In this document: piece by piece, positions 1,841-63,788 of the stretch | Layout of the letters: every line of letters starts with the position of its first letter | Position numbering within the stretch: position 1 is the first letter of the stretch | Assembly (NCBI GenBank): GCA_030655135.1 | Contig: JAURWC010000020.1 | Span: 1 to 64,000 of the forward strand | Direction of reading: 5' to 3' | Source of the DNA: Hyphomicrobiaceae bacterium | GTDB taxonomy: Bacteria > Pseudomonadota > Alphaproteobacteria > Rhizobiales > Hyphomicrobiaceae | DNA: 64,000 bases | The notes under the pieces: generated by a model | Database searches by the model: none | What the model was told of the DNA's origin: nothing | What the model saw: the letters and a program-made list of their open reading frames with translations, nothing else | Position numbers and translations under genes: made by a program

Positions 1841-3364
1841 TCAGAAGTAATTGTAGCCGCGCTCGCCGTGGGACATGACGTCGAGGCCCTCGCGCTCATC
1901 GTAAACGGAGACACGCAGCCCAATCGTCCAATCGACCAGCTTATAGATGATCGCCGATCCTAGTCCTGACCACAGCAGCGTGAGCCCCACGGCCTTGGCC
2001 TGCGCGAGCATCTGGGGTCCCATGTCGTAGCCGATGGCGATCTGGCCGGGCTGGGAAATGTAGTCGGCAACGCCGGTGCCGCCGAAATCCGGATTGACCA
2101 GCAGGCCGGTGCCCAGCGCGCCGACAATGCCGGCCACGCAATGCACGCCGAAGACATCGAGGCTGTCGTCGTAGCCAAGCGCGGCCTTGATGCTGGTGCA
2201 GAACGTGTAGCAGAAAATGCTGGTAACGAAGCCAAGCACCAGCGCGCCGCCTGGTGCGGCGAAGCCGGACGCTGGCGTGACGGCGACGAGGCCGGCGATT
2301 GCGCCGGACGTGGCGCCGAGGATGGACGGCCTGCGGCCGCTGATGCTTTCGATGACCATCCAGCCGAGGGCTGCGGCCGCGGTTGCAGCAAACGTATTGC
2401 CCATGGCGAGTGCCGCGGTGCCGTTGGCCTCCAGATTGGAACCGCAGTTGAAGCCGAACCAGCCAACCCAGAGCAAGCAGGCGCCAACGACACTAAGCGT
2501 GAGTGAATGCGGCGGCATCGGATCGCGGCCGTAGCCGGTGCGAGGCCGAAGCATGATGGCGCCGACGAGGCCGGCAATGCCGGCGTTGACGTGGACGACG
2601 GTACCGCCGGCAAAGTCGATGGCGCCCATCTGGTAAATCCAGCCGGCGTCAGCGATGAGCCGGTCCAGGTCCGCCTGGGCCACGATCTTGGCATCACCGG
2701 TCGCGGCCGCGACTGCAGCGGCGGCATTGGACAAGGCGTCGGGGCCGGGCCAGTACCACACCATGTGGGCGATCGGGCAATAGACGAACGTCAGCCACAG
2801 GGCCATGAAGGTCATGACGGCCGAAAACTTGATGCGCTCGGCGAACGAGCCGACGATCAGCGCCGGCGTGATGGCCGCGAACGTCATCTGGAAGAAGATG
2901 TAGGCATATTCGGGCACAGTGACACCGTGCGAAAACGTGGCCGCTTCCGACGCGGGATTGACGCCGCTGAGAAAGAGGCGCGAGAAGCCGCCGAACCAGC
3001 GGCTGTGATCGCCACCCGAGGTGAACGCCAAGCTGTAGCCATAGGCGATCCACAGAACGCAAACCAGGCAGACGGTGGCAAACACGTGCATCAGCACGGA
3101 CAGGACGTTCTTCGTGCGCACCAAGCCGGCGTAGAAAAGTGCCAGCCCCGGGATGGTCATCAGGAGAACCAGAACGGCGGAGATCATAAGGAAGGCCGTG
3201 TCACCTTTGTCCGGCGCGGCCCATACGGGCGTCGCCATGATCGCCAGCGCCGCGCAAATGCGCACGGCGCGCACACAGATGCGCCCCACGCCAACGCAGG
3301 CGCGCGCCGCGCGCGTCAGGAGCGCTTGAGGCTGCCCTTGCGTCATCCAATCCTCGATTGCCAT
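1841..3364 (-). CDS. amtB: Ammonium transporter, Amt family
   Basis: The 507-residue inner-membrane protein conducts ammonia/ammonium. A positively charged N-terminus and a cleavable signal (ATPVWA near residue 49) precede about 11 membrane segments. The twin pore histidines are visible in CPIAHMVWYW and FGVHCVAGIVGALG, and the phenylalanine gate region in FFQMTFAAITPALIVG. The length is slightly above the usual 400-450 because of the long N-terminus; an internal start cannot be excluded. amtB is usually cotranscribed with glnK, but no glnK is adjacent here. A sigma-54 promoter about 45 bp upstream indicates NtrC control under nitrogen limitation. Confidence 0.95.
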   Translation of the reverse strand: MAIEDWMTQGQPQALLTRAARACVGVGRICVRAVRICAALAIMATPVWAAPDKGDTAFLMISAVLVLLMTIPGLALFYAGLVRTKNVLSVLMHVFATVCLVCVLWIAYGYSLAFTSGGDHSRWFGGFSRLFLSGVNPASEAATFSHGVTVPEYAYIFFQMTFAAITPALIVGSFAERIKFSAVMTFMALWLTFVYCPIAHMVWYWPGPDALSNAAAAVAAATGDAKIVAQADLDRLIADAGWIYQMGAIDFAGGTVVHVNAGIAGLVGAIMLRPRTGYGRDPMPPHSLTLSVVGACLLWVGWFGFNCGSNLEANGTAALAMGNTFAATAAAALGWMVIESISGRRPSILGATSGAIAGLVAVTPASGFAAPGGALVLGFVTSIFCYTFCTSIKAALGYDDSLDVFGVHCVAGIVGALGTGLLVNPDFGGTGVADYISQPGQIAIGYDMGPQMLAQAKAVGLTLLWSGLGSAIIYKLVDWTIGLRVSVYDEREGLDVMSHGERGYNYF

Positions 3365-50730: not shown

Positions 50731-50771
50731 ATCGGGAAGAATTGGCAGGCATATCGGGAGCTACTCCTGTG
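50731..50771. promoter_or_regulatory. Candidate operators upstream of xoxF-1
   Basis: ATCGGGAAGAATTGGC (50731) and ATCGGGAG-CTA-CTCCTGTG (50753-50771). The second matches the site at 59320-59338 at both ends (ATATCGGGA and TCCTGTG). They lie 250-290 bp before the dehydrogenase. The rest of 50681-51018 holds no gene I can support. Confidence 0.5.
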
Positions 50772-51018
50772 GCGTGGTTGGACGCTGCTGCGTAGCTTCC
50801 AATCACTGCAGTACGGTTCGGTCTGCAAGATGGCTTGAGCTTCCTCTCCGCCCCTCTTACAGCCGAGCCGATCTTCAGCCAGGTAGGCTCCGCCGGCACG
50901 ACTGGCGGCAATATCAAGAAACGTATCGTCCACCAGCAATTGTCCCCCCTCGCGGCGGGGCACGGCGACCTATTGCGCGTGCTCATCTGAGGCGGGCGAG
51001 AGCCAATGAGGAAACGGC

Positions 51019-52905
51019 ATGAACCGGAAACTCCTAATGTTAGCAGGCAGCCTGTTGGTTGCCTCGCTCGGAGTGAGCGCGCCAGCGTTCGCCAACTCCG
51101 AGATCGAAGAAAGGGCCAAGAACGAAAATCTGTGGCCCGCGCCCGGCCGCGACAATCAGCTGACGCGTCATTCGAAGCTGAAAGACATCAACACCGAGAC
51201 CGTCGGCAAGATGCACATGGTCTGGACGCAGTCGATGAACTCGACGCGCGGCCAGGAAGGCCAGCCCGTCGTCGTCGAGCATGACGGCAAGCCGATGATG
51301 TTCTTCTCGTCCGGCTGCCCCGACATGGCGCGCTGCAACGTCGTGCAGGCGCTCGACCTGTCCGACCCGGACAACCCCAAGCAGATCTGGAACTACGTCA
51401 AGACCACGGATCGCGACGAGTCCGCCATCCCGCGCGCTTGCTGCGATACGGTTCACCGCGGCGTGAACTACGTCAAAGGCAAGCTGATCTATCACACCCT
51501 CGACGGCTTCGTGATCGCGCTCGACGCATCGACCGGCAAGGAAGTCTGGGTCGTCAAGCACGCGTATCCTGAAAAGGGTGAGACGCTGACCGGCCCGACG
51601 CTGGTTGCCGAGAACGTCGTGATCGCCGGCTTCGGCGGCGACGAGTTCGCAGCCCGCGGCCGCCTGACGGCCTACGACATCGAAACCGGCAAGGTCGTGT
51701 GGAACTGCCACTCGACGGGTTCGGACAAGGATGTCTGCCTGACGCCCGAGACCAACAAGGCCAACCCGCATTTCGGTACGGCCGGCACCGACCTGGGCAT
51801 TTCCACGTATCCGGCCACGAACGGCGGCGAGTGGAAAATCGGCGGCGGCGCTTACTGGGCCTGGGGCAGCTACGACCCCGACCTGAAGCTCGTCTACTGG
51901 TCCACCGGCAACCCCGGTCACTGGAGCCCGACCTATCGTTGCGGCGACAAGACCCACGACGAATGCAACACCGGCAAGTGGGACAACAAGTGGTCGATGA
52001 CCATTTTCGCCCGCAAGGTGGACACCGGCGAAACCGTCTGGGCCTACCAGATGACGCCGTTCGACCAGTGGGACTATGACGGCGTCAACGAAAACATCCT
52101 CTCGGACATGGAAATCGACGGGAAGAAGTATAAGACGCTGACGCACTTCGACCGTAACGGCTTTGCCTACGTTCTCAATCGTGTCGACGGCACGCTGCTG
52201 CGCGCCAACAAGTTCGTCACGGTGGACTGGGCCGAGAAGGTCGACCTGAAAACCGGCCGTCCCGTGAAGGTGCGCGAGCACTCGCCGTTCGAGGTTGGCC
52301 GCAACACGCCGGCTTGCCCGTCGGCGATGGGTGGCAAGGATCAGCAGCCCTGCGCTCACGATCCGGCCGAACCGACGAAGTTCTATTGCCCCACGAACAA
52401 CTGGTGCATGGAAGACGAACCGCAGGAGCGCACGCACACGCAGCAGGGCACGGTCTACGTGTTCGCCAACGTGTACATGTATCCTGAGAAGCCCGGCATC
52501 ACCGGCAAATTCAAGAAGTTCGACGTCGTGACCGGTAAGGCCGATTGGGAAATCCCCGATCCGTTCCCGAACTGGGGTGGCGCGCTCGTCACCGATGGCG
52601 GCCTAGCCTTCTACGGCTCGCTAGGTGGTGACTTCCGTGCCGTCGACAAGAAAACCGGCAAGGTTCTTTGGCAGCGCAAACTGTCGTCCGGCATCATCGG
52701 CAACCCGATCACCTACAAGGTCAAGGGTAAGCAGTACGTGTCGGTGTTCGCGGGCATCGGCGGCTGGATCGGTCTTCCGGTCACCGCAGGTCTCGACATG
52801 AACGACAAGTTCGGTGCGATCGGTGCAACGGCAATGGCGAAGGCAGCGAACCTGACTTCGATCCCGCCGGGCGCCAACCTCTACACCTTCCGTCTGTTCG
52901 ACTGA
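51019..52905 (+). CDS. xoxF: PQQ-dependent methanol dehydrogenase, XoxF type (copy 1)
   Basis: The protein has 628 residues: a signal peptide (to residue 25, APAFA), then an eight-bladed propeller. The vicinal disulfide CC at 141-142 and WDYDGVNEN with Asp 352 (catalytic) and Asp 354 (the extra Asp marking lanthanide-dependent enzymes) are present. It oxidises methanol or another primary alcohol in the periplasm. It carries 12 Cys (100, 106, 141, 142, 230, 240, 308, 316, 433, 445, 457, 463), far more than classical MxaF, and all have counterparts in copy 2. The sequence is clearly diverged from XoxF5. No cytochrome cL gene is adjacent. The next gene encodes its probable XoxJ-like partner. Confidence 0.93.
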   Translation: MNRKLLMLAGSLLVASLGVSAPAFANSEIEERAKNENLWPAPGRDNQLTRHSKLKDINTETVGKMHMVWTQSMNSTRGQEGQPVVVEHDGKPMMFFSSGCPDMARCNVVQALDLSDPDNPKQIWNYVKTTDRDESAIPRACCDTVHRGVNYVKGKLIYHTLDGFVIALDASTGKEVWVVKHAYPEKGETLTGPTLVAENVVIAGFGGDEFAARGRLTAYDIETGKVVWNCHSTGSDKDVCLTPETNKANPHFGTAGTDLGISTYPATNGGEWKIGGGAYWAWGSYDPDLKLVYWSTGNPGHWSPTYRCGDKTHDECNTGKWDNKWSMTIFARKVDTGETVWAYQMTPFDQWDYDGVNENILSDMEIDGKKYKTLTHFDRNGFAYVLNRVDGTLLRANKFVTVDWAEKVDLKTGRPVKVREHSPFEVGRNTPACPSAMGGKDQQPCAHDPAEPTKFYCPTNNWCMEDEPQERTHTQQGTVYVFANVYMYPEKPGITGKFKKFDVVTGKADWEIPDPFPNWGGALVTDGGLAFYGSLGGDFRAVDKKTGKVLWQRKLSSGIIGNPITYKVKGKQYVSVFAGIGGWIGLPVTAGLDMNDKFGAIGATAMAKAANLTSIPPGANLYTFRLFD

Positions 52906-52969
52906 TGCCGTCTTAGCAAAACCGGCAGACGCCTGGTGCCGAAAGGCCCCGGGCGTCTCGCCGTTTAAG

Positions 52970-53001
52970 CTCCCTCACCCCTTTCTTACGGGGAGAGGGA
53001 G
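52970..53001. repeat. REP-like CTCCCTCACCCC element
   Basis: CTCCCTCACCCC, TTTCTTAC, GGGGAGAGGGAG: a palindrome of the family that also forms the pair at 54972-55129. It lies between xoxF-1 and the XoxJ-ankyrin gene. A stem AGACGCC/GGCGTCT just before it (52927-52957) may stabilise the xoxF message. Confidence 0.75.
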
Positions 53002-53046
53002 AAGAGGCGTTCACCTGCGACGACACTGTGACCTGAGGACACTGAA

Positions 53047-54894
53047 TTGCGTACTCTTCGAGCACTCGCCGTGATCGCATTTGCGCTAGCCGCTACGAAC
53101 GTCGCCAGCGCCCAGCGATTGAAGGAATACACGAAGAACAAGAACTTTGACGACCTCACCCACGCCGAACACAGCGCCGCCAAGTCGGAGGCGCGCAACC
53201 GCACGCTGAAGCGTTTGCGCGTGTGCGCCGATCCCGGCAACATGCCGATGTCCAACGACAAGGGCGAAGGCTATCAGAACAAGATCGCCGAGCTGCTCGC
53301 GCGCTCCATGGGCGGCGAGGTCAGCTTCTTCTGGCGACCGTATCTGGAGCGCGGCGTGACGCGCGAAACCTTTGCCAACGACGAATGCGATGTGCTGATG
53401 GACATGCCGGTCGGTGGCCAGGCGCACATCCTCACTACCAACCCGATCTATCGTTCCACATACGTGTTGGCTTGGCGAAGCGACAGCGGTTACGACTTCA
53501 CCAGCCTCGACGATCCGAAGCTGAAAGAGCTGCGGATCGGCGTCTTCCAGCACTCCGGCATGCGTGAGGCGCTGGCGCGTCGCGGCTACGACGAACGCAA
53601 GATCGACCTGCACATCATTTCGCACATGGCGGATCTGCGGCCGGAAGAACAGCCGTGGCGTCAGGTGCAAAAGGTTCTCGACCGCCAGATCGACCTGGCT
53701 GCCGTCTGGGGTCCGTTCGCGGGCTGGCTGCCGAAGATGAAGAACGAGCCGCTCGTCATCCGTCCGGTCAACATGATGGAAGACAAGGTTCCGATGGAGT
53801 TCGACCTCGCCATCGGCATGAAGCAGAACAACGTGCTGCTGAAATACATGATCGACTGGGCGCTGGATCGCAACAAGAACGAGATCGCCAAGATCCTCGC
53901 CGACTACGGCGTGCCGCTGGTCCAGTGCAGCAAGTGCACGGTACAGGGCGACATCCCCTCGCACGGCAGCTACTACGAAAAACTCCGCGGCCTCGCCCAT
54001 GCCGAAGACCGCTACCTGAAGCAAGCCGCTCCGATGCAGGCAACCGCCAAGGCGTCGGCCGACCAAGTCGTGACCGCCGAGCGGGTGGAGCAATGGCTCA
54101 AGGACGGCGCGGATCTGAACGAAGAACTGCACAACGGCATCATCGCCAACGACGCGACGCGCGTCGCGCTGCTGATCGGCAAAGGCGCGGACGTCAATCA
54201 ACAAAACGCGCAAGGCTATGGCCCGTTGCACAGCGCCGCTCGAAACCGCAATGCGCCGATCGTCGAGCTGCTGGCGAAACACAAGGCGGACGTCAACGGC
54301 CTGGACAGTGACGGCTTCACGCCGCTCGACTACGCGGTTGGCCGCAATCACGTGCCGACGATCGACATGCTGCACAAGCTGGGCGCCGATCTGAACCTGA
54401 AGGACCGGAACGGCATCACGCCTCTCGTGCAGGCGCTGTCTGACGGCCGCTACCATGCCGCCAAGGCGCTTATGGATCGCGGTGCCGACGTCAATCGTGC
54501 GGCCGGCAACGAAGACATCACGCCGCTGATGGCGGTGGCGACGCAGATCACGGCGCAAACGCGCCAGACGCACATTACGCAGGGCCCGCCGCCGTCGGCG
54601 CTGGCGGACGAGCTCATCAAGAAGGGTGCCAGCGTCAACGCCGTGTCGAAGCACGGAGTAACCCCGCTGATGATCGCGGCCGGGCACAACAATGCGCCGA
54701 TGATCGGTCTCTTGCTGCGTGCCGGAGCCGATCCAGCGATGAAGTCGGCCGACGGAAAGACGGCCATCGACGTGGCGCAAAAGGCCCTGAACGACGACGC
54801 CATCGGCGCGCTGAAGTTCCTGGCGAGACCAAGCGGCCCGGGCGCCGCAGGCGTTGCGCCGTCCAAGCCAGCGCCGCCGCCCGCGCAGAACTGA
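53047..54894 (+). CDS. XoxJ-like quinoprotein-associated binding protein fused to ankyrin repeats (copy 1)
   Basis: The protein has 615 residues and starts at TTG with GAGGA upstream. A signal peptide (to about 22) precedes a periplasmic binding-protein-like domain of the quinoprotein-associated (MoxJ/XoxJ, TIGR03871-like) family at about 55-300 (LRVCADPGNMPMSN, FFWRPYLERGVTRETF, CDVLMDMPVG, VWGPFAGWLPK). That domain ends with a conserved CSKC. About six ankyrin repeats (345-600) follow (GADVNQQNAQGYGPLHSAAR, GITPLVQAL, GVTPLMIAAGHNNAP) and a Pro-rich tail. XoxJ is thought to help mature or activate XoxF. The ankyrin extension should add a protein-binding surface in the periplasm. Copy 2 is at 61965-63788. 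Confidence 0.9.
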   Translation: MRTLRALAVIAFALAATNVASAQRLKEYTKNKNFDDLTHAEHSAAKSEARNRTLKRLRVCADPGNMPMSNDKGEGYQNKIAELLARSMGGEVSFFWRPYLERGVTRETFANDECDVLMDMPVGGQAHILTTNPIYRSTYVLAWRSDSGYDFTSLDDPKLKELRIGVFQHSGMREALARRGYDERKIDLHIISHMADLRPEEQPWRQVQKVLDRQIDLAAVWGPFAGWLPKMKNEPLVIRPVNMMEDKVPMEFDLAIGMKQNNVLLKYMIDWALDRNKNEIAKILADYGVPLVQCSKCTVQGDIPSHGSYYEKLRGLAHAEDRYLKQAAPMQATAKASADQVVTAERVEQWLKDGADLNEELHNGIIANDATRVALLIGKGADVNQQNAQGYGPLHSAARNRNAPIVELLAKHKADVNGLDSDGFTPLDYAVGRNHVPTIDMLHKLGADLNLKDRNGITPLVQALSDGRYHAAKALMDRGADVNRAAGNEDITPLMAVATQITAQTRQTHITQGPPPSALADELIKKGASVNAVSKHGVTPLMIAAGHNNAPMIGLLLRAGADPAMKSADGKTAIDVAQKALNDDAIGALKFLARPSGPGAAGVAPSKPAPPPAQN

Positions 54895-54937
54895 TAGCGC
54901 GCCCTTCTCGATCTTCCCCACTCTGGAGACGTACCTG

Positions 54938-56131
54938 ATGTCCACGCCGCCAACGAAGTCCGCCGCCCGGTCCCCTCTCCCCGTCCTTCACGGGGAGAGG
55001 GTTAGGGTGAGGGGCAGGTTCCAGGCGAGCGGCCTAGCCAGCTCCAACCACAAGACTCATGCGCCCTCAGCGGCGCGCCAGCCGCTGCCCCTTACCCCGA
55101 CCCTCTCCCCGCGCGCGGGAAGAGGGGGACGTGCTGCCGCAGCGCTAACGCGAATGACAATGGTTTCGGCGATTGCCGCGATTGCCGTGGCGGCGACGCC
55201 GGCGTCCGCTCTGGCCGATACCATTTTCGTGTCGAACGAGAAGGACAACACCATCACCGTGCTCGACAGCGAAACGCTGAAGGTGATCAAGACCATCCCC
55301 ACAGGACTTCGCCCGCGCGGCATCGTGATGACCCCCGACTTCAAGGAGCTGCTGGTGTGCGCGGGCGACGACAACCGGCTCGACGTCATCGACACGGCCA
55401 CGCTGGAAGTCACGCGCACGCTGCCGTCGGGCCCCGACCCCGAATTGCTCGATGTCGATCCGAAAGGCGAACGCATTTACATAGCGAATGAGGACGACAG
55501 CATCGTCACCGTGCTGCAGCGCGCCGACGGTAAAGTGTTGTCGGAAGTCGCTGTCGGCATCGAGCCGGAAGGCATGGCCGTCAGCCCGGACAACAAGATC
55601 ACGGTGGCGACATCCGAAGCCACCAGCATGGCGCACGTGATCGACAACGCCACGTTCGAAGTCCTCGCCAACATTCTCGTCGACACACGGCCGCGCGAAG
55701 CGCGCTTCACATGGGACGGCAAGCACGTCTGGGTGTCGTCGGAGATCGGCGGTACGGTTACGGTGATCGATGCCGCGACGCTGCAGCCCGTAAAAAAGTT
55801 CGGCTTCGAAATTCCCGGCGTCGATCCCGATCTCATCCAGCCGGTCGGCATTCGCTTCACGCTGGACGGCAAGCGCGCGTTCGTGGCGTTGAGCCATGCC
55901 AATCGCGTGGCCGTCGTGAACGCGGCCACGTTCGAGATCGAACGCTACATCCTGGTTGGCCAGCGTCCCTGGCACATGCAGCTGTCACCCGATGGCAAGA
56001 CGCTATACGTCGCCAACGGTCTCACCAACGACATGACGGTCGTCGATGTCGAAACGTTCAAACCGGAGAAGTCGGTGCCGGTCGGCCGGCTGCCGTGGGG
56101 CGTCGCAATCAAGCCGGGCAAAGCGCCGTAG
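54938..56131 (+). CDS. Exported YVTN beta-propeller protein, PQQ-dehydrogenase-associated
   Basis: About seven 40-residue YVTN-like repeats (DTIFVSNEKDNTITVLDSET, IYIANEDDSIVTVLQR, LYVANGLTNDMTVVDVET) fill the C-terminal 320 residues. This matches the beta-propeller family tied to PQQ-dependent alcohol catabolism (TIGR03866-like). The signal peptide is VSAIAAIAVAATPASALA. From ATG 54938 (GGAG upstream) about 70 residues precede the signal. They are the in-frame translation of a REP-element pair (54972-55129), read as LTPTLSPRAGRG and PVLHGERVRVRG. The alternative start is ATG 55154, without a ribosome-binding site. Confidence 0.85.
   Translation: MSTPPTKSAARSPLPVLHGERVRVRGRFQASGLASSNHKTHAPSAARQPLPLTPTLSPRAGRGGRAAAALTRMTMVSAIAAIAVAATPASALADTIFVSNEKDNTITVLDSETLKVIKTIPTGLRPRGIVMTPDFKELLVCAGDDNRLDVIDTATLEVTRTLPSGPDPELLDVDPKGERIYIANEDDSIVTVLQRADGKVLSEVAVGIEPEGMAVSPDNKITVATSEATSMAHVIDNATFEVLANILVDTRPREARFTWDGKHVWVSSEIGGTVTVIDAATLQPVKKFGFEIPGVDPDLIQPVGIRFTLDGKRAFVALSHANRVAVVNAATFEIERYILVGQRPWHMQLSPDGKTLYVANGLTNDMTVVDVETFKPEKSVPVGRLPWGVAIKPGKAP
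54972..55129. repeat. Inverted pair of REP-like elements (REPIN)
   Basis: CCCCTCTCCCCGT...ACGGGGAGAGGG followed by TTAGGGTGAGGGG (to 55014), and the inverse CCCCTTACCCCGACCCTCTCCCCG...GAGGGGG (from 55088). The two face each other across 73 bp. The pair lies within the 5' end of the propeller reading frame and is read through. Confidence 0.85.
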
Positions 56132-56190
56132 GCGCGGCTGTACGAAACTGCGTAGCGCTCGTGACGCGAGATCTTGTGAGTGCGTGCCCT

Positions 56191-56216
56191 GGGGTCAGAC
56201 CCATGGGTCTGACCCC
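56191..56216. repeat. GGGGTCAGACC palindrome (copy 2)
   Basis: A perfect 26-bp palindrome, GGGGTCAGACCCA/TGGGTCTGACCCC, between convergent genes. It is related to 23570-23593 and may act as a terminator. Confidence 0.8.
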
Positions 56217-56298
56217 GAAACTGGCGTTCGCTGTTGGCGAATAATTGCGCATCATTAAGGGCTGCGCACGTCAAGTCGCCAGGATGCAGCCAAGCGAC

Positions 56299-56811
56299 TT
56301 ACTGCACCATCACCCGATTGCCGTCTTCGGTCATGGCTTCACCGGGTTTGATGTCTCCGCAGTCGGCGCCGAGATACTCGCCAGTCTGATCGATCTTGCG
56401 CTCGCGCTGCAGCGGCTTGCCGGAGGGCGGCGTCGTGATTGTCGTCGAGACAATCTTGACCGCGAACGATTTCTTGAAGTCGCCCGAGATTTCCGTGCGG
56501 CTCGTCACCTTGTCGACGGCGTAGGCGCACTCGGCATCGACGACCGTCGTATTGCCGTCCTGCTTGACGTCGTAGCGGGAGCAGTTCGATTTGTGCTCGC
56601 TGGCGCTGGCTTCCGCGGTGTTTTTTTCCATCTCCGCCGTGATGCACATCGTCAGCGACTGCTTGATCGGGCCGCGGCCCTCATCCATCTCGGTCTGCAG
56701 CTTCCACTTGCCCGGCTCTCGCTGCGGAAGCTCTCCGTCGGCGGCGAATGCTGTTGAGTTGAGCAAGGTGGACAACAGCAGCGCCGTGGCAATAGCTGGG
56801 AAATTCGGCAT
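56299..56811 (-). CDS. Exported DUF3617-family protein
   Basis: The protein has 170 residues. A signal peptide (LLLSTLLNSTAFA) is followed by REPGKWKLQTEMDEGRGP, CITAEMEKN, SNCSRYDVKQDGNTTVVDAE, the FKKSFAVKIVSTT strand and YLGADCGDIKPGEAM. This matches DUF3617, small periplasmic proteins of unknown role with a lipocalin-like look. ATG 56811 has GAGG upstream. A perfect copy of the ATCGGGAA palindrome lies 80-100 bp upstream. It sits between the two xoxF modules. Confidence 0.8.
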   Translation of the reverse strand: MPNFPAIATALLLSTLLNSTAFAADGELPQREPGKWKLQTEMDEGRGPIKQSLTMCITAEMEKNTAEASASEHKSNCSRYDVKQDGNTTVVDAECAYAVDKVTSRTEISGDFKKSFAVKIVSTTITTPPSGKPLQRERKIDQTGEYLGADCGDIKPGEAMTEDGNRVMVQ

Positions 56812-56891
56812 CGGGGAAACCTCGGACTGATTGGCTTGGCGAGCGGGCGACCGTATCCGACCGCGCCCTAATCGCAAGATATCCAACGCAT

Positions 56892-56912
56892 ATCGGGAAC
56901 TTTTCCCGATCG
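56892..56912. promoter_or_regulatory. ATCGGGAA-CTT-TTCCCGAT palindrome
   Basis: A perfect 8-3-8 inverted repeat (56894-56912) preceded by AT. It lies 83 bp before DUF3617 (minus strand) and 222 bp before the serine hydrolase (plus strand). It is the best copy of the motif also found upstream of both xoxF modules. Confidence 0.6.
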
Positions 56913-57081
56913 GAACGGCGCTAACGGCCGAACCTATTGCGCAAGCGAACGATTTCACCGGATACTGCCCGGCATAGACACGCCCCGACGGGCCAAATTC
57001 CGGGCAAGCGGATGCGAGTGCGGATGCTAGCGACTTTCAGTCTTTCGTCGAATTGCAGAGTGTCTCTAGCTGCTCGTTTTG

Positions 57082-57127
57082 TCGTGCTTCTGTTCGGAAA
57101 ACGGCTTTACACTTGGCCGGGAAGCAC
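57082..57127. repeat. Single variant copy of the array A/B repeat
   Basis: TCGTGCTTCTGTTCGGAAAA, CGGCTTTACACTTGGCC, GGGAAGCAC: one unit of the 1-135 family with several changes. It ends 8 bp before the serine hydrolase start codon. Confidence 0.85.
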
Positions 57128-57134
57128 TCTTGCG

Positions 57135-58247
57135 ATGATGATGGTTATCGCTCTCGGGTGCGGCGCGGCAAACGCGCGGGCAGCGTCCTGGAACGACGAC
57201 AAGGCGCGCCAGACGCAGGCGATGGCCGAGCATTTCCTGCAGCCGCACGGCACCGCACCGATCCGCCCGCCGGCCATCAGCATCGCCATTGGCTTGGATG
57301 GCCAGCTGCTGTTTGCCGGCGGCGCAGGCGCGGCCGGCCTTGGCCGCAGTGCCACGGCCGACACCGTGTACCGCATCGGCTCGGTGACAAAGCAGTTCAC
57401 AGCGGCCGCCGTGCTGCGCATGATCGAACAAGGCGCACTGGCGCCACGGACGCTAACCGCGATCACGCTGGACACGGACATCGGCGATATATTCGAGGGA
57501 ACGACCGACTGGCGGGTCGAGGGGCAGAACCCGATCACGATCCGCAGCCTGCTCAACATGACGTCGAACCTGCCCAACTTCACGCGCAAGCCGCCCGATG
57601 CCGTGGACCCGTGGGGCACAGTGCAGGCTGCAACGCTGCTGACGGAACTGAAGAAGCAGAAGCCAAGCGGGTGGCCCGGCACGTTCGAGTATAGCAATAC
57701 GAGCTATTTCATTCTTGCGGAGGTGCTCGAAGCGGCTTTGTGGAAAGACGGAGCGCCGCACCCTTACGAGAAGGTGCTGCAGACGGAGGTGTTCGCGCTT
57801 GCGGCGATGCGGTCCACGGATTTCACGGGCTATCGCATGGATCGGATGGCGATCCCGGCCTATCACCGCCGCGCTGCGTTCTCGGACCGGGACTGGCTGA
57901 AAGGAAGCGGGGATGCGGCCAGTACGGTGCGCGATCTGTTCACCTGGAACGTGGCGCTGATGTCCGGCAAAATCCTGTCGCCCCGGATGCACCAGGAGAT
58001 GTTTCGCGAGGGCGGCCGGGTGACGCCTACGATCTACTACGGAATGGGCTGGTTCATGGATGAGACGGACGGCCGGAAGCGATGGTTCCATTCGGGCACC
58101 GTTCCCGGCTTCACGGCCTACAACTCCATCGTGCAGCGAACGGGCAGCGGGCAGTGGATCTCCATCACGTTGCTCACGAACTCCGACGGGGTCGAAGGCC
58201 TGGAGGAACTGGCGGACGATCTGATGTTTCTGGTCGAGGCAAACTGA
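57135..58247 (+). CDS. Exported serine hydrolase, beta-lactamase (class C/PBP4*) family
   Basis: The protein has about 370 residues. A short signal (MMMVIALGCGAANARA) is followed by the serine-hydrolase core: SxxK in YRIGSVTKQFTAAAVL, YxN in GTFEYSNTSYFILAEVLE, and HxG in RWFHSGTVPGFTAYN. Members are peptidases, esterases or carboxypeptidases; resistance to beta-lactams cannot be inferred. Three consecutive ATG codons (57135, 57138, 57141) lie directly after a repeat copy. The frame is open upstream through the repeat, so the native signal peptide may have been interrupted. Confidence 0.85.
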   Translation: MMMVIALGCGAANARAASWNDDKARQTQAMAEHFLQPHGTAPIRPPAISIAIGLDGQLLFAGGAGAAGLGRSATADTVYRIGSVTKQFTAAAVLRMIEQGALAPRTLTAITLDTDIGDIFEGTTDWRVEGQNPITIRSLLNMTSNLPNFTRKPPDAVDPWGTVQAATLLTELKKQKPSGWPGTFEYSNTSYFILAEVLEAALWKDGAPHPYEKVLQTEVFALAAMRSTDFTGYRMDRMAIPAYHRRAAFSDRDWLKGSGDAASTVRDLFTWNVALMSGKILSPRMHQEMFREGGRVTPTIYYGMGWFMDETDGRKRWFHSGTVPGFTAYNSIVQRTGSGQWISITLLTNSDGVEGLEELADDLMFLVEAN

Positions 58248-58347
58248 CGGTCAGCCGCGCCGGCGGATGCGCAGCTCGGTCAGGTATGGGAGACGAGTGA
58301 GGCAGCCGCAATCGCTCGCCATCGCACTGACACCCGGCAAGGCCGCA

Positions 58348-59172
58348 TTACGTGCCGCTATCGCGTTCGCCCCCGGAGAATTTGGTGTCCTCGGTATCCT
58401 TGGCGGTGACCGAGAGGCGGTCGGCGACCGCAGTGGTTCCGTAGGTGAAGCGCAAGTTGGGGTTCTCTGAAATGGAGATGCCGCCGAGCATGGAGAACAG
58501 CAACCTGCCGCCGAGGGACACCTCGAGCTTGTCCACGTAACGGGCGGGCGTGTAGTTGCGCGTCTTGGCATCCATCTGCATGCCGGTGAAGTTCGGGTGG
58601 CGAACCATCACGACACCGTCGCGCCAGGCCTCGCCGTGCTGCGCGCTACTCATCGCCTTGACCTGCACCTTGCCCATGGCGGCGAGCGCCTCGTCGGGAT
58701 CTTTCGAGTTCGGTGCCGAGCAGCCGCCGGCACCGGCGACGAACTTGGCGATCATGAAGAGTTCGCCGTCCGTCGTCTCAAGGATGGCACGCACCTTCGA
58801 GAAATTGTCGATGCGCACGCGCGTCGACAGAGCGCGCTCGCCGATATCGAGCTTGCGGTAGGCGTCTTCGAACTTAAACGTGGCTGCAAGCGGAACGGGG
58901 TTACGATCGATCACGAGCGTGAGGGCCTTGACCTTGCCAGCGATGCTGGAGGGAAAGCGAATATCGATCGGTACCACCGAGGCATCGGCGGCTTGCGCTG
59001 GCGCATAAAGTGCGAACGGCGGGCTCGTTTCCTTGATCGCCCGGTCGCTAAAAATTTCCTTGCGGATCTCGGGCCAGGGCTCGGAGGCCGCAGCGGATGC
59101 TGGGGTAAGCGCGCAGAAGGCGGTGACCAGGGCACCGATGCGGAACGCTGCCAAGAGCTTGGTGAAGGACAT
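58348..59172 (-). CDS. Quinoprotein dehydrogenase-associated SoxYZ-like carrier
   Basis: The protein has 274 residues. A signal peptide (ALVTAFCALTPASAAA) is followed by a SoxY-like domain (PEIRKEIFSDRAI; AILETTDGELFMIAKF; GAGGCSAPNS, the Cys-bearing loop) and a SoxZ-like domain (VRHPNFTGMQMDAKTRNY, ISISENPNLRFTYG). This matches the SoxYZ-like fusion found beside PQQ dehydrogenases (TIGR04557-like), thought to carry a substrate or electrons on its Cys. GAGGAG precedes ATG 59172. It is divergent from xoxF-2, with candidate operators between. Confidence 0.87.
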   Translation of the reverse strand: MSFTKLLAAFRIGALVTAFCALTPASAAASEPWPEIRKEIFSDRAIKETSPPFALYAPAQAADASVVPIDIRFPSSIAGKVKALTLVIDRNPVPLAATFKFEDAYRKLDIGERALSTRVRIDNFSKVRAILETTDGELFMIAKFVAGAGGCSAPNSKDPDEALAAMGKVQVKAMSSAQHGEAWRDGVVMVRHPNFTGMQMDAKTRNYTPARYVDKLEVSLGGRLLFSMLGGISISENPNLRFTYGTTAVADRLSVTAKDTEDTKFSGGERDSGT

Positions 59173-59317
59173 CAATCAACTCCTCGGTGGCGCCAGGTGC
59201 TTGCGGGCCCAGCCGTGGATCGTGCCTGTGTTCAATGCATGGATTGCAACCCTATCACGGTCACGGGTCACAATGTAGCAACGCATGTGCTGTCTGAGAA
59301 AAGTCCAATGCCGCGCG

Positions 59318-59338
59318 ATATCGGGAAGTTGTCCTGTG
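59318..59338. promoter_or_regulatory. Candidate operator between the SoxYZ-like gene and xoxF-2
   Basis: ATATCGGGAAGTTGTCCTGT (plus G): shares ATATCGGGA, a 4-base gap and TCCTGTG with 50751-50771. It lies about 150 bp before the SoxYZ-like gene. Confidence 0.5.
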
Positions 59339-59493
59339 TGAGGACGCTCTGAGCCCACCTAGTATGATGAAGCTTGCAGACCTCAGCGGGTGTCGCGACG
59401 GCTGACCTCCATTAGCTCTTACGGCACCCGCTTTTCCTTCCCCACCGCATGACGGTATGGGCAACGGCCGCAGCAAACCGTCCATAGAAGCGT

Positions 59494-59550
59494 GCCGGGA
59501 ATTTTTCCCGATCAGACTTTTTCCCAGATCGATCGGGAAGAAGTCCCGTA
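59494..59550. promoter_or_regulatory. Cluster of ATCGGGAA-type palindromes upstream of xoxF-2
   Basis: GCCGGGAA-TTT-TTCCCGAT (59494-59512) and ATCGGGAA-GAA-GTCCCGTA (59532-59550), 38 bp apart, with a half-site TTCCCAGATC between. They lie 370-430 bp before xoxF-2. The remaining gap 59551-59922 shows no gene and no further motif. Confidence 0.55.
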
Positions 59551-59922: not shown

Positions 59923-61803
59923 ATGAGTTACAAGAAATTGCTGATGCCAGCTGCACTTGCTGCAGCATGGCTCGGTATGGCGGGAGGTGCCCTTGCCAAC
60001 GCCGAAGTCGAGAAACGCTCGCAGAACCCCGACGTCTGGGGTGCGCCCGGTAAAGACAACAAGCTCACGCGTCACAGTGAGCTGAAAGACATCAACACCA
60101 AGAACGTTTCCAAGCTCAACATGATCTGGTCGCAGTCGACCGGCGCGTTGCGCGGCCATGAAGGCCAGCCGCTTGTGATCGAAGACGTGGGCGGTAAGCC
60201 GATGATGTTCTTCATTTCGGGCTGCCCCGAAATGTCCAAGTGCAACATCGCCCAGGGCCTCGACCTTTCGGACCCCGACAATCCCAAGCAGATCTGGAAC
60301 TACGTCAAGCAGACGGACCGCGATGAATCGGCTGTGCCGCGCGCTTGCTGCGATACCGTCAACCGCGGTGCGGCCTATGCCGACGGCAAGCTGGTTTACG
60401 GCACGCTGGACGGCTTCATCATTGCGCTCGATGCCGCCACCGGCAAAGAGCTCTGGGTCGTCAAGAGCGCCTTTCCCGACAAGGGCGAGACCATCACCAG
60501 CGCTCCGGTGATCGCTGAGAACCTCGTCATCACCGGCTTCGGCGGCGACGAGTTCGCAGCCCGCGGCCGCGTGACGGCCTACAACCTTGCCGACGGCAAG
60601 GAAGTCTGGGCCTGCCATTCGACCGGCTCGGACAAGGACGTCTGCCTGACGCCCGACACGAACAAGGCCAACCCGCACTTCGGCACGGCCGGCACAGACC
60701 TCGGCATCAAGACGCACGTCGGCGAGGACTATAAAATCGGTGGCGGCGCGGCGTGGGGCTGGTTCAGCTACGATCCCGAGTTGAAGATGGTCTACTACTC
60801 GACCGGCAACCCCGGTCTTTGGAGCCCAGCTTATCGCTGCTCGAAGAAAACCCACGAAGAGTGCAACACGGGCGAGTTCGACAACAAGTGGTCGATGACC
60901 ATTTTCGGGCGCAAGGTCGACACCGGTGAAGCCGTGTTCGCCTATCAGATGACCCCCTTCGACCAGTGGGACTATGACGGCGTCAACGAGAACATCCTCG
61001 TCGACATGGACGTGGACGGCAAGAAGCGCAAGACGCTCGTTCACTTCGACCGTAACGGCTTCGCTTACGTTCTCGATCGTACGGACGGCACGCTGCTGCG
61101 CGCCCACAAGTACGTGACGACGGATTGGGCCGAGAAGGTCGACCTGAAGACGGGCCGTCCGGTCAAGGTGCGCGAGCACTCGCCGCTGGAGCGTGGCCGC
61201 AACGTCGCTGCTTGCCCGTCTGCGATGGGCGGCAAGGACCAGCAGCCCTGCGCGATCGACCCGAAAGATCCGAGCAAGGCCTACTGCCCCACCAACAACT
61301 GGTGCATGGAGCTGGAACCGCAGGAGCGCACGCACACGCAGCAGGGCACGGTCTACGTGTTCGCCAACGTGTTCATGTATCCTGAGAAGCCCGGCATCAC
61401 CGGCAAGGTCAAGAAGTTCGACGTGCTGACCGGCAAGACCGATTGGGAAATTCCGGACCAGTACCCGAACTGGGGTGGCACGCTCGTGACCGACGGCGGC
61501 CTGGTGTTTTACGGATCGCTGGGCGGTGACTTCCGCGCTGTCGACCGTGAGAGCGGCAAGGTGCTCTGGAGCCGCAAGCTGGCATCCGGCATCATCGGCA
61601 ACCCCATCACCTACAAGCTGAAGGGCAAGCAGTACGTGTCGATCCTCTCCGGCATCGGCGGCTGGATCGGTCTGCCGGTCACGGCTGGTCTCGATCTTTC
61701 CGACAAGTTCGGTGCGATCGGTGCAACCGCCATGACGAAGGCAGCCAACCTGGACAAGATTCCCCAGGGCGGCGCGCTCTTCACCTTCCGCGTCATGGAC
61801 TAA
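59923..61803 (+). CDS. xoxF: PQQ-dependent methanol dehydrogenase, XoxF type (copy 2)
   Basis: The 626-residue protein is a close paralogue of copy 1 (51019-52905) with the same features: signal peptide (to about 26, GGALANA), vicinal CC at 142-143, and FDQWDYDGVNEN with catalytic Asp 350 and lanthanide Asp 352. The same 12 Cys are present. RGHEGQPLVIED and CCDTVNRGAAYADGK are nearer to canonical XoxF than copy 1, which has STRGQEG and CCDTVHRGVNYVKGK. AAGGAGAGGAAG gives a strong ribosome-binding site. A XoxJ-ankyrin gene follows after 161 bp containing two hairpins. Codon use resembles copy 1, so duplication within the lineage is likely. Confidence 0.93.
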   Translation: MSYKKLLMPAALAAAWLGMAGGALANAEVEKRSQNPDVWGAPGKDNKLTRHSELKDINTKNVSKLNMIWSQSTGALRGHEGQPLVIEDVGGKPMMFFISGCPEMSKCNIAQGLDLSDPDNPKQIWNYVKQTDRDESAVPRACCDTVNRGAAYADGKLVYGTLDGFIIALDAATGKELWVVKSAFPDKGETITSAPVIAENLVITGFGGDEFAARGRVTAYNLADGKEVWACHSTGSDKDVCLTPDTNKANPHFGTAGTDLGIKTHVGEDYKIGGGAAWGWFSYDPELKMVYYSTGNPGLWSPAYRCSKKTHEECNTGEFDNKWSMTIFGRKVDTGEAVFAYQMTPFDQWDYDGVNENILVDMDVDGKKRKTLVHFDRNGFAYVLDRTDGTLLRAHKYVTTDWAEKVDLKTGRPVKVREHSPLERGRNVAACPSAMGGKDQQPCAIDPKDPSKAYCPTNNWCMELEPQERTHTQQGTVYVFANVFMYPEKPGITGKVKKFDVLTGKTDWEIPDQYPNWGGTLVTDGGLVFYGSLGGDFRAVDRESGKVLWSRKLASGIIGNPITYKLKGKQYVSILSGIGGWIGLPVTAGLDLSDKFGAIGATAMTKAANLDKIPQGGALFTFRVMD

Positions 61804-61964: not shown

Positions 61965-63788
61965 GTGAAGCACCACACATTTTCCCGCCTGCTGTCCGGC
62001 TTCCTTGCCAGCCTCGCCGCGGTGTTGCCCGCGCACGGCGAAGACAAGCCGCTGTCTCCGGAGGAACGTGCCCTCAAGACGGCTATCGGCAAGCTCGACT
62101 CGCAGCTGCCCTTGTCGTCGGCCGATCATACCGCGCTGAAGAAGGCGGCCGCTGCCCGCAAGCTGGAACAGCTGCGCGTCTGTGGCGATCCAGGCAACAT
62201 GCCGCTCTCGGATATCAACCGCGCGGGCTACGGCAACAAGATCATCGAACTCGTCGCCAAGGAGATGGGCACCGAAGTGCACTACTTCTGGCGGCCGTAC
62301 CTCGAGCGCGGCATCACGCGCCAGACGTTCGAGGTCAACGAATGCGACGTGCTGCTCGACATGCCGGTCGGATTCGAGCGCATCCTCACGACGACGCCGC
62401 TGTACAAAACGACATACGTTCTGGCCTATCGCAACGATCGTGGCATCGAGATCGCCAACCTGGATGATCCCAAGCTGCACGACTTGAAGATCGGTGTGTT
62501 CCAGACCTCCGGGCTGCGTACCGCGCTGAACAAACGCGGGGTTATAACAAACGTCTCGCTGCATGTCCTCAGCCACAACGCCGACCTGAAACCCGAGAAC
62601 CAGCCGTACCAGCAAGTGCGGCAAGTGCTCGACGGCAAGCTGGACGTTGCCGGCATCTGGGGGCCGTTCGCCGGCTGGCTGAAGGCGCAAGGCGAGCCGC
62701 TCACGGTCCTGCCAGTAAATATGTGGGAAGACGAAATCCCGCAGGAATTCGAGATCGCGATCGGCCTGCGCAACATCGATTGGATCTTGAAGTACAAGTT
62801 CGATCTGGCGCTGGAAGCGCGCAAGGGAGAGATCGAGAAGACGTTGCGCGACTTCGGTGTGCCGTTGGTGCAATGTTCCAAGTGCGTGGTGCAGGGTGAC
62901 CTGCCGGCGCACGGCATCTATACGGTGCCGTTGCAGCAAGCGGCAAATCCGGCCACTGGACAGCCGCTCGCCGTCGCGCCCGACCAACTCGTGACGCAAG
63001 AACGCGTCGAATCCTGGTTGAGCGACGGCGCTGACATCGACAGCGAACTGGCCAATGCCGTGTTGGCGGCCGACGCGCCGCGCATCAAGTTCCTCGTCTC
63101 CAAGGGCGCCGATCTCAACAAGCGCGACAGCCAGGGTTACACCGCTTTGCAAAGCGCGGCGCGGCACCGCAAGACCAAGCTGCTGGAAGAGCTCATCACG
63201 CTGAAGGCGGACGTCAACGCGACCGACCAGGACGGCTATGCCGCCCTGCATCACGCTATTTTGCGCGATCATCCCGACTCGGTACGAGTGCTGATGCAGA
63301 ACGGCGCGGACAGTAGCCTGCGCACAGCTAGCGGTTTCACACCGCTGGCTTTGGCCATCCTGGAGAACCACTACAAAGCCGCCGTTGCGCTCATCGAGAC
63401 CGGCGCGCCCGTCGACACGCCGGTCGGCGAAGCCAAGCTCACGCCGCTCATGCTCGCGGCCGGCTCGGAAGGCAACAAGCTGCACTTGGGCGCGGGCAAG
63501 CACCGCGTCGAGAAGTGGAATCCCAAAGATCCGGGCGTTCTGGAGATCACGCGCGCGTTGCTGGACAAGGGTGCCAACGTCAACGCCGTGAGCGAAACGG
63601 GCGTGACGGCATTGATCCTTGCTGCGTCACACAACAACGCGCCGATCGTCGGCATGCTCGCACAGGCCGGCGCTGATCCGTTGGTGAAGACCAAGGACGG
63701 GAAGACCGCAGCGGACCTAGCAAAGCAGAACGGCAACGAAGCCGTGGTCAGTCTCCTGCGGCTTCTGGAACAGGCAGGTAACAACTGA
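61965..63788 (+). CDS. XoxJ-like quinoprotein-associated binding protein fused to ankyrin repeats (copy 2)
   Basis: The protein has 607 residues and starts at GTG with GAAGG upstream. Same architecture as copy 1: signal peptide (to about 25, AVLPAHG), XoxJ-like domain (LRVCGDPGNMPLSD, YFWRPYLERGITRQTFEVNE, CDVLLDMPVG, IWGPFAGWLKA), conserved QCSKC at its end, then about six ankyrin repeats (GADLNKRDSQGYTALQSAAR, ATDQDGYAALHHAI, GVTALILAASHNNAP). The N-terminal helix before the domain is longer than in copy 1. The stop TGA overlaps the next ATG (TGATG), implying translational coupling. Confidence 0.9.
   Translation: MKHHTFSRLLSGFLASLAAVLPAHGEDKPLSPEERALKTAIGKLDSQLPLSSADHTALKKAAAARKLEQLRVCGDPGNMPLSDINRAGYGNKIIELVAKEMGTEVHYFWRPYLERGITRQTFEVNECDVLLDMPVGFERILTTTPLYKTTYVLAYRNDRGIEIANLDDPKLHDLKIGVFQTSGLRTALNKRGVITNVSLHVLSHNADLKPENQPYQQVRQVLDGKLDVAGIWGPFAGWLKAQGEPLTVLPVNMWEDEIPQEFEIAIGLRNIDWILKYKFDLALEARKGEIEKTLRDFGVPLVQCSKCVVQGDLPAHGIYTVPLQQAANPATGQPLAVAPDQLVTQERVESWLSDGADIDSELANAVLAADAPRIKFLVSKGADLNKRDSQGYTALQSAARHRKTKLLEELITLKADVNATDQDGYAALHHAILRDHPDSVRVLMQNGADSSLRTASGFTPLALAILENHYKAAVALIETGAPVDTPVGEAKLTPLMLAAGSEGNKLHLGAGKHRVEKWNPKDPGVLEITRALLDKGANVNAVSETGVTALILAASHNNAPIVGMLAQAGADPLVKTKDGKTAADLAKQNGNEAVVSLLRLLEQAGNN

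Follow-up and report, generated by a model that had tools for sequence, protein, structure and literature searches.

The stretch analyzed here, 64,000 nucleotides of a Hyphomicrobiaceae bacterium (assembly GCA_030655135.1, contig JAURWC010000020.1, positions 1 to 64,000 of the forward strand; hereafter the window), carries a recurring palindrome around two genes for pyrroloquinoline quinone (PQQ) dehydrogenases, xoxF-1 and xoxF-2. This palindrome is probably the operator of a two-component regulon of the NarL/LuxR type for lanthanide/alcohol quinoproteins, and its predicted regulator belongs to the family of a response regulator encoded at positions 119–739 of contig C3 of the same genome. The enrichment of the motif, its fixed spacing, its location, its conservation and its co-occurrence with the C3-type regulator were all computed. 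The original prediction, made from the window alone, had proposed one dimeric regulator for the whole cluster. A single dimeric regulator is well supported, since strict sites precede PQQ-dehydrogenase genes on other contigs as well, and those of relatives are found upstream of xoxF-type, pqq, transporter and regulator genes. Shared control of the cluster is likewise upheld, but the regulon reaches far beyond the cluster, across the genome and into related genera.

A palindrome with a fixed core precedes quinoprotein genes

The motif was defined by the 14 fixed positions of TCGGGAANNNTTCCCGA; its best form is TCGGGAA-N3-TTCCCGA and its core GGGA-N5-TCCC. Operator coordinates are given for 19 bp, and mismatch counts start one base in, on a 17-mer (56893–56909, for example). 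The perfect copy, ATCGGGAACTTTTCCCGAT at 56892–56910, lies between the divergent DUF3617 and beta-lactamase-like genes. Before xoxF-2, on the plus strand, are two further operators, GCCGGGAATTTTTCCCGAT at 59494–59512 with one mismatch (59495) and ATCGGGAAGAAGTCCCGTA at 59532–59550 with two mismatches and an intact core (59533), and between them the half site TTTTTCCC (59518–59525, plus strand), which is kept in the same-genus genome G001. Two copies are degenerate: ATCGGGAAGTTGTCCTGTG on the minus strand at 59320–59338, before the SoxYZ-like gene, has three mismatches (59321), and ATCGGGAGCTACTCCTGTG on the plus strand at 50753–50771, about 250 bp before xoxF-1, has four (17-mer at 50754). A half site TCGGGAA at 50732–50738 (plus strand), upstream of xoxF-1, may be due to chance; the heptamers TCGGGAA or TTCCCGA occur 12 times in the window.

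All copies were found within two bases of where the original prediction had put them, the perfect one being at 56892–56910 and not at 56894–56912, and both of its half sites are present, at 50732 and 59521. Its remark that the window holds no other copy was slightly wrong, since a further match with two mismatches occurs at 58092; this match, which falls within the beta-lactamase-like gene and has no GGGA core, is probably due to chance.

Compared with 300 dinucleotide shuffles of the window, the motif was found twice at up to one mismatch (shuffle mean 0.017; 0 of 300 shuffles reached 2) and four times at up to two (mean 0.32; 0 of 300 reached 4). At up to three mismatches there were seven matches against a mean of 3.2, a number reached by 6% of the shuffles (7 of 100 in a second run). 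This last level is within chance, so that the degenerate copies at 59320 and 50753 are not significant by themselves, and strict-core, genome and relative tests were therefore used.

The original prediction had named as a refutation a motif equally frequent elsewhere. In the 4,055,843 bases of the own genome (G000), with the reversed pattern as control, this was not what we observed: 5 places against 0 were found at up to one mismatch, and 26 against 13 at up to two. At up to three mismatches the counts were nearly noise (168 against 133). Because about half of the weak matches are noise, we relied on the strict sites. The core GGGAAN4TCCC gave 38 strand matches against 19 for the control, corresponding to 26 distinct places.

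The own genome has seven PQQ-dehydrogenase genes (PF01011), and GGGAAN4TCCC on either strand is found within 500 bp upstream of four of them (0.02 expected from 26 places in 4.06 Mb). These are xoxF-2 and the genes on contigs C22, C91 and C17; xoxF-1 has the degenerate site. The C22 dehydrogenase (TIGR03075) is divergent from a SoxH-like quinoprotein metallohydrolase (TIGR04559), and the C91 enzyme has a cytochrome domain. The DYD signature, which passages of PMC11845868 describe as common to rare-earth-dependent dehydrogenases, is present in xoxF-1, xoxF-2, C22 and C17; C91 has DYN, mxaF has DYA, and no such signature was found in the C84 dehydrogenase. The distribution of the sites fits the occurrence of DYD, as sites, one of them degenerate, precede all four DYD genes and no N5 site precedes the DYA-type, calcium-type mxaF.

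Elsewhere in the own genome, sites separate Ada from pseudoazurin (TIGR02375) and a cytochrome c gene from that of an exported protein with no family, and two lie in the gap between MoxY and its neighbor (C71:71381 and 71466). Sites also precede the genes for a Polyketide_cyc2 protein, a TonB receptor (C43) and small exported proteins (C84 and C71:87 kb). Sigma-70-like hexamers were seen on the right side of only 3 of 16 own sites (C22:216053, C22:261058 and, weakly, C91), so no promoter geometry is claimed. The C84 operator (C84:157503, minus strand; locus L014 from 7504 downwards) lies just upstream of the gene for a 100-residue, exported-looking protein rich in Asp, Ser and Gly, possibly a metal-binding periplasmic protein.

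Spacing, location and conservation in related genomes

The comparison covered a sample of 60 genomes, that is, the own genome and 59 others, and 71 fetched xoxF loci, of which 60 were used with upstream windows of up to 700 bp and 11 were left out. GGGA and TCCC were separated by N5 in 15 of the 60 xoxF loci, and by every other spacing from 0 to 14 in at most 3. The Hyphomicrobium strain NDB2Meth4 (locus L041) is among those in which an N5 site precedes xoxF. Among the xoxF genes of the sampled genomes with at least 73% identity to xoxF-2 (n = 14), N5 was found in nine, with 0, 1, 0 and 0 for spacings of 3, 4, 6 and 7, respectively. A search of the region upstream in locus L276 gave no site.

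In other genera of the family, the best palindromes also occur at genes of quinoprotein metabolism. One separates the genes for a SoxYZ-like carrier (TIGR04557) and a PQQ dehydrogenase (TIGR03075) in locus L207; others stand before a PedA1A2BC-type set of PedA1 (TIGR03863), PedA2 (TIGR03866), an ABC ATPase and PedC (TIGR03861) in L217, and before pqqB, pqqC and pqqD, all above cut-off, and a cut pqqE in L221. The pqq operon of the own genome, unlike this one, has no site. Seven further loci (L206, L210, L211, L213, L214, L219 and L224) carry the palindrome at a TonB receptor, often with ExbB/TolQ-like neighbors, and other sites in relatives are at unrelated or coding places. Most neighbors in relatives were first read by eye, and part of them were then checked against families. 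With tblastn, the own regulon proteins matched 3 of the first 29 motif loci and 0 of 30 control loci; the three matches were a congener site, a TonB receptor and a weak regulator match (28%) outside the family.

A small exported protein with the pattern LNKLE...CRAYLVV is shared by several TonB-receptor loci that carry the palindrome (L206, L211, L224 and L205 at 2543–3034); its copy in the own genome gave no NCBIfam or Pfam match. Candidate substrates for the receptors at palindrome loci are a lanthanide chelate, an iron chelate or PQQ.

If the motif were a dispersed repeat, or a product of chance in GC-rich DNA, this would account for the approximately half of own-genome matches at up to two mismatches, and for most at three, that are expected by chance. 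Such an origin does not explain that the sites share the core only and not the flanks, that the spacing is fixed, or that 14 of 29 motif loci in relatives are intergenic, compared with 5 of 30 control loci from the same genomes (rough gene calls). For the strict sites it is refuted by the enrichment and spacing tests, and as an account of the whole pattern we regard it as very improbable.

Conservation was followed in G001. The locus L029 and G001 are identical over their aligned stretch (701/701) and were counted as one. The site at 59321 is kept there as CCGGGAAGTTCTCCTGT, and the 17-mer at 50754 is unchanged as TCGGGAGCTACTCCTGT, at a similar distance before the xoxF-1 ortholog, which is 90% identical to xoxF-1; these two weak copies gain support from this conservation. 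Amid diverged flanks, the two sites before xoxF-2 persist together as a block, with the operator at 59532 conserved and the first core base of the 59494 counterpart altered. Between the DUF3617 and beta-lactamase-like genes, where the window has its perfect copy, G001 has a site with one mismatch.

A candidate regulator on contig C3

The own genome has ten matches to LuxR-type (GerE) domains. The response regulator at C3:119-739 has a receiver domain (PF00072) and a GerE domain (PF00196) above cut-off, and the neighboring kinase at C3:736-2109 has HisKA_3 (PF07730), PF02518 and HAMP (PF00672) domains above cut-off and a LapD_MoxY_N periplasmic domain match that is sub-threshold. This pair follows genes for ExbB (TIGR02797), ExbD (TIGR02803), a TonB-like protein and a TonB receptor. 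Orthologs of the regulator were found in 17 of the 59 other genomes, with 54–69% identity and 98% in the congener. In 13 of 60 xoxF loci the fetched flank includes a C3-type kinase or regulator, and in G032 (locus L222) the pair sits between xoxF and a SoxYZ-like gene.

As expected of the inverted-repeat operator of a two-component regulon, the motif is enriched, fixed at N5 and located before the target genes, and it also precedes operons of this regulator family. A site within 350 bp upstream was found by script in 7 of 19 kinase operons, or in 8 of 19 when L222 is taken from its aligned start; as background, the same measure gave 1 site when applied to control loci (87,937 bp) and 0 when applied to the first 50 kb of the window. 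Two of 21 loci were left out to give the 19 operons, L305 for want of a kinase match and L315 because the contig end cuts the kinase, and in L309 and L313 the upstream window precedes a further regulator gene that stands before the kinase.

G001 has a site some 100 bp beyond the 3' end of the regulator gene, in a region convergent with the 3' end of a short-chain dehydrogenase gene (L300:3518). The own genome has a matching site and dehydrogenase at the end of contig C42 (C42:270121), and its contig C3 begins with the regulator; this arrangement mirrors the order in G001, and the two contigs therefore probably adjoin. An unannotated transcript in the convergent region beside the regulator is possible.

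Motif and regulator occur together in relatives. Sites with at most one mismatch were counted against the control, with the own genome left out and no correction for phylogeny. Within the family, the 16 genomes with an ortholog had 39 sites against 10 for the control, and the 19 without had 10 against 9 (Mann-Whitney p 0.003); all 42 genomes without an ortholog had 22 against 28. Where XoxF is present without a C3-type regulator (6 genomes), the counts were 2 and 4. The 11 genomes with a C3-type regulator and no MoxX had 28 against 6, and the 6 with both had 11 against 4. At the level of loci, N5 was found in 8 of 13 xoxF loci linked to a C3-type pair and in 0 of 8 linked to MoxX (p 0.007); these classes were assigned by hand, L031 by its kinase only, and leave 39 of the 60 loci unclassed.

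The best match of the C3 regulator in the PDB, as the best of 130 sequences, was DevR/DosR (3c3w, E 8.6e-28). The DosR palindrome has GGGAC halves with a spacing of N6, compared with N5 here. Passages of PMC4082495 give Lys179, Lys182 and Asn183 as the base contacts of DosR. By residue number they correspond to K, K and N in its helix KTVKN, which aligns with KTVAN in the C3 regulator. Two of the three contact residues (K and N) are thus kept and Lys182 is replaced by Ala. The aligned helix reads KT(V/I)AN in 24 of 25 orthologs, the remaining one being cut off there.

Conflicting observations and alternative regulators

Several observations weigh against assigning the palindrome to the C3-type regulator and its quinoprotein regulon. 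No site was found within 350 bp upstream of the own kinase operon, nor anywhere in C3:1-10500, and in the set of xoxF records only 1 of 11 kinase operons has a site within 400 bp, at the same L222/L079 locus. G026 has two sites at a TonB locus and no ortholog (best 28% identity), and at this stringency no site was found in G015, G030, G034 and G044, all of which have the ortholog. The own pqq operon is without a site, the C84 dehydrogenase has no N5 site, and within 700 bp upstream of mxaF (C71:73.9 kb) there is no GGGA...TCCC pair at spacings from 0 to 15. Several strict own sites lie inside genes, and two have no evident link to the proposed regulon (C22:422144, before an acetolactate-synthase-like gene, and C51:223583, before a CheY-like gene; names by eye). 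The relatives are not independent samples, and the xoxF-locus and sampled-genome sets overlap (L079 is G032 and L032 is G010). Finally, MoxX and RR2 share the KTVAN helix with the C3 regulator, so that recognition could overlap and cross-talk is possible.

The paralogous MoxX or RR2, encoded beside mxaF (C71:69-73 kb), could accordingly be the protein to which the operator belongs. Besides carrying the same helix, both are on the same contig as the window, and the two sites at C71:71381 and 71466 lie beside MoxY. Even so, MoxX orthologs (E up to 1e-50) occur in only 6 of the 59 other genomes, the excess of sites persists in genomes with a C3-type regulator and no MoxX, MoxX-linked xoxF loci are devoid of N5, and the 700 bp before mxaF hold no N5 site either. 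We consider this assignment unlikely. A longer-spaced inverted repeat, GGGAATTGGTTGCCATCAATTCCC, was noticed upstream of the calcium-type mxaF (L015, between 9480 and 9990); it may be a target of MoxX or RR2.

In other genera, TonB-receptor loci hold many of the best palindromes. The palindrome might then be read by a different transcription factor, such as a metal-responsive or redox regulator linked to TonB uptake, with the quinoprotein genes forming just part of its regulon. The sites of G026 also agree with such a factor, and the sub-threshold PqqU similarity of some receptors allows for more than one substrate. In contrast, the motif immediately precedes the kinase/regulator operon in several genera and occurs together with this family of regulators, and no other regulator explaining the pattern was found, MoxX being the one alternative examined. 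A different factor is, in our estimation, about as improbable as MoxX or RR2, and the C3-type regulator remains the preferred candidate.

Relation to known systems

Two-component control of PQQ dehydrogenases is already known, and the operator was not found described in the portions of the literature examined. The C3 regulator resembles DevR/DosR as a NarL-type regulator with a KTVxN recognition helix; this is a resemblance and not membership, and the sensor and regulon of DevR/DosR are unrelated to the C3 system. The MxaY/MxaB and MoxXY systems, as described in passages of PMC9291206 and PMC11845868, are similar in pairing a MoxY-type kinase with a response regulator in a lanthanide switch. 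However, the own MoxX is a separate paralog of the C3 regulator, and MoxX-linked xoxF loci are without the N5 motif. Identity of the C3 regulator with the MoxX ortholog was considered and rejected, as the two proteins are separate paralogs with 37% identity and the motif does not track MoxX.

PedS2/PedR2 (EraS/EraR) of Pseudomonas putida is also comparable, being a kinase and a LuxR-type regulator for lanthanide- and calcium-type PQQ dehydrogenases whose genes adjoin PedA1A2BC, SoxYZ-like and SoxH-like genes (passages of PMC6115532 and PMC12997753); this likeness is one of published description. According to parts of PMC6115532, PedR2 is an activator of pedE and, under the control of lanthanum, contributes to the repression of pedH. 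That paper does not use the words motif, binding site, inverted or consensus, and the passages of PMC12997753 examined give no operator for PedR2. Unlike that system as described, the motif here is found at TonB-receptor loci and before the regulator operon. FlhSR of Paracoccus denitrificans, an alphaproteobacterial two-component system for methanol/formaldehyde genes, is alike by its description in passages of PMC8879981. The CrbR/ACTU motif is, in the relevant parts of PMC5715377, an imperfect inverted repeat needed for LuxR-type activation and tested by mutation, but it has another sequence and belongs to an acetate regulon.

Proposed mechanism and significance

We infer binding by the C3-type regulator, as well as the signal and the direction of control. 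The kinase (C3:736-2109) would phosphorylate the response regulator (C3:119-739), a dimer of which would bind GGGA-N5-TCCC with one recognition helix per GGGA half. The regulon would comprise the DYD-type dehydrogenases together with electron carriers and SoxYZ/SoxH-like partners; to these, relatives would add the PedA1A2BC-type transporter, pqqBCD, TonB-receptor loci and the regulator's own operon. The signal is most likely lanthanide or methanol/formaldehyde status; the original prediction had suggested alcohol or lanthanide. The direction is most likely activation, which is expected from the usual role of NarL/LuxR-type regulators. A bolder and more doubtful proposal, which we put forward tentatively, is a dedicated rare-earth regulon, family-wide in Alphaproteobacteria, in which a DosR-like pair would sense periplasmic lanthanide and, through one palindrome, switch capture by TonB/PedA1A2BC, PQQ synthesis, the lanthanide dehydrogenases with their electron carriers, and itself.

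Most of what is known about the regulation of lanthanide-type methanol dehydrogenases comes from mutants of a few methylotrophs. A full-text literature search, which for the most part did not extend to subscription papers, identified no paper naming an operator sequence for a xoxF regulator. With a defined palindrome and a candidate regulator, the lanthanide switch becomes directly testable. The palindrome may also serve as a tag for further lanthanide-linked genes, such as the adjoining TonB receptors and small exported proteins, and it would tie uptake, cofactor synthesis and enzyme expression into one circuit.

Genes and other repeats of the window

The two PQQ dehydrogenases of the cluster, xoxF-1 (51019–52905) and xoxF-2 (59923–61803), are encoded on the plus strand, match TIGR03075 above cut-off and have the DYD lanthanide signature. 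Each is followed on the same strand by a gene for a MoxJ-like periplasmic binding protein (TIGR03871 above cut-off), at 53047–54894 and 61965–63788, respectively. The C-terminal halves of both MoxJ-like proteins match ankyrin-repeat models, an unusual fusion for a periplasmic protein. A PedA2-like, PQQ-associated beta-propeller protein (54854–56131, plus strand; TIGR03866 above cut-off) has an open reading frame that probably starts too early. The same probably applies to the DUF3617 protein (56299–56958, minus strand), whose domain (PF12276, above cut-off) begins at residue 81 and which had no NCBIfam match. Its divergent partner at the 56892 site is a beta-lactamase/AmpH-like protein (56937–58247, plus strand) with NCBIfam matches below cut-off, and the quinoprotein-associated SoxYZ-like carrier (TIGR04557 above cut-off) is encoded on the minus strand at 58348–59175.

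Two other repeats were noticed. A perfect 26-bp palindrome, GGGGTCAGACCCATGGGTCTGACCCC, at 56191–56216 of the window recurs beside the C84 operator (L014, just downstream of 7575) and looks like a dispersed repeat. Palindromes resembling CTCTCCCCG...CGGGGAGAG recur in intergenic DNA, in the window at about 52966–53010, 54973–55003 and 55095–55130 and in L017 near 8.0–8.1 kb, as a dispersed element similar to repetitive extragenic palindromes.

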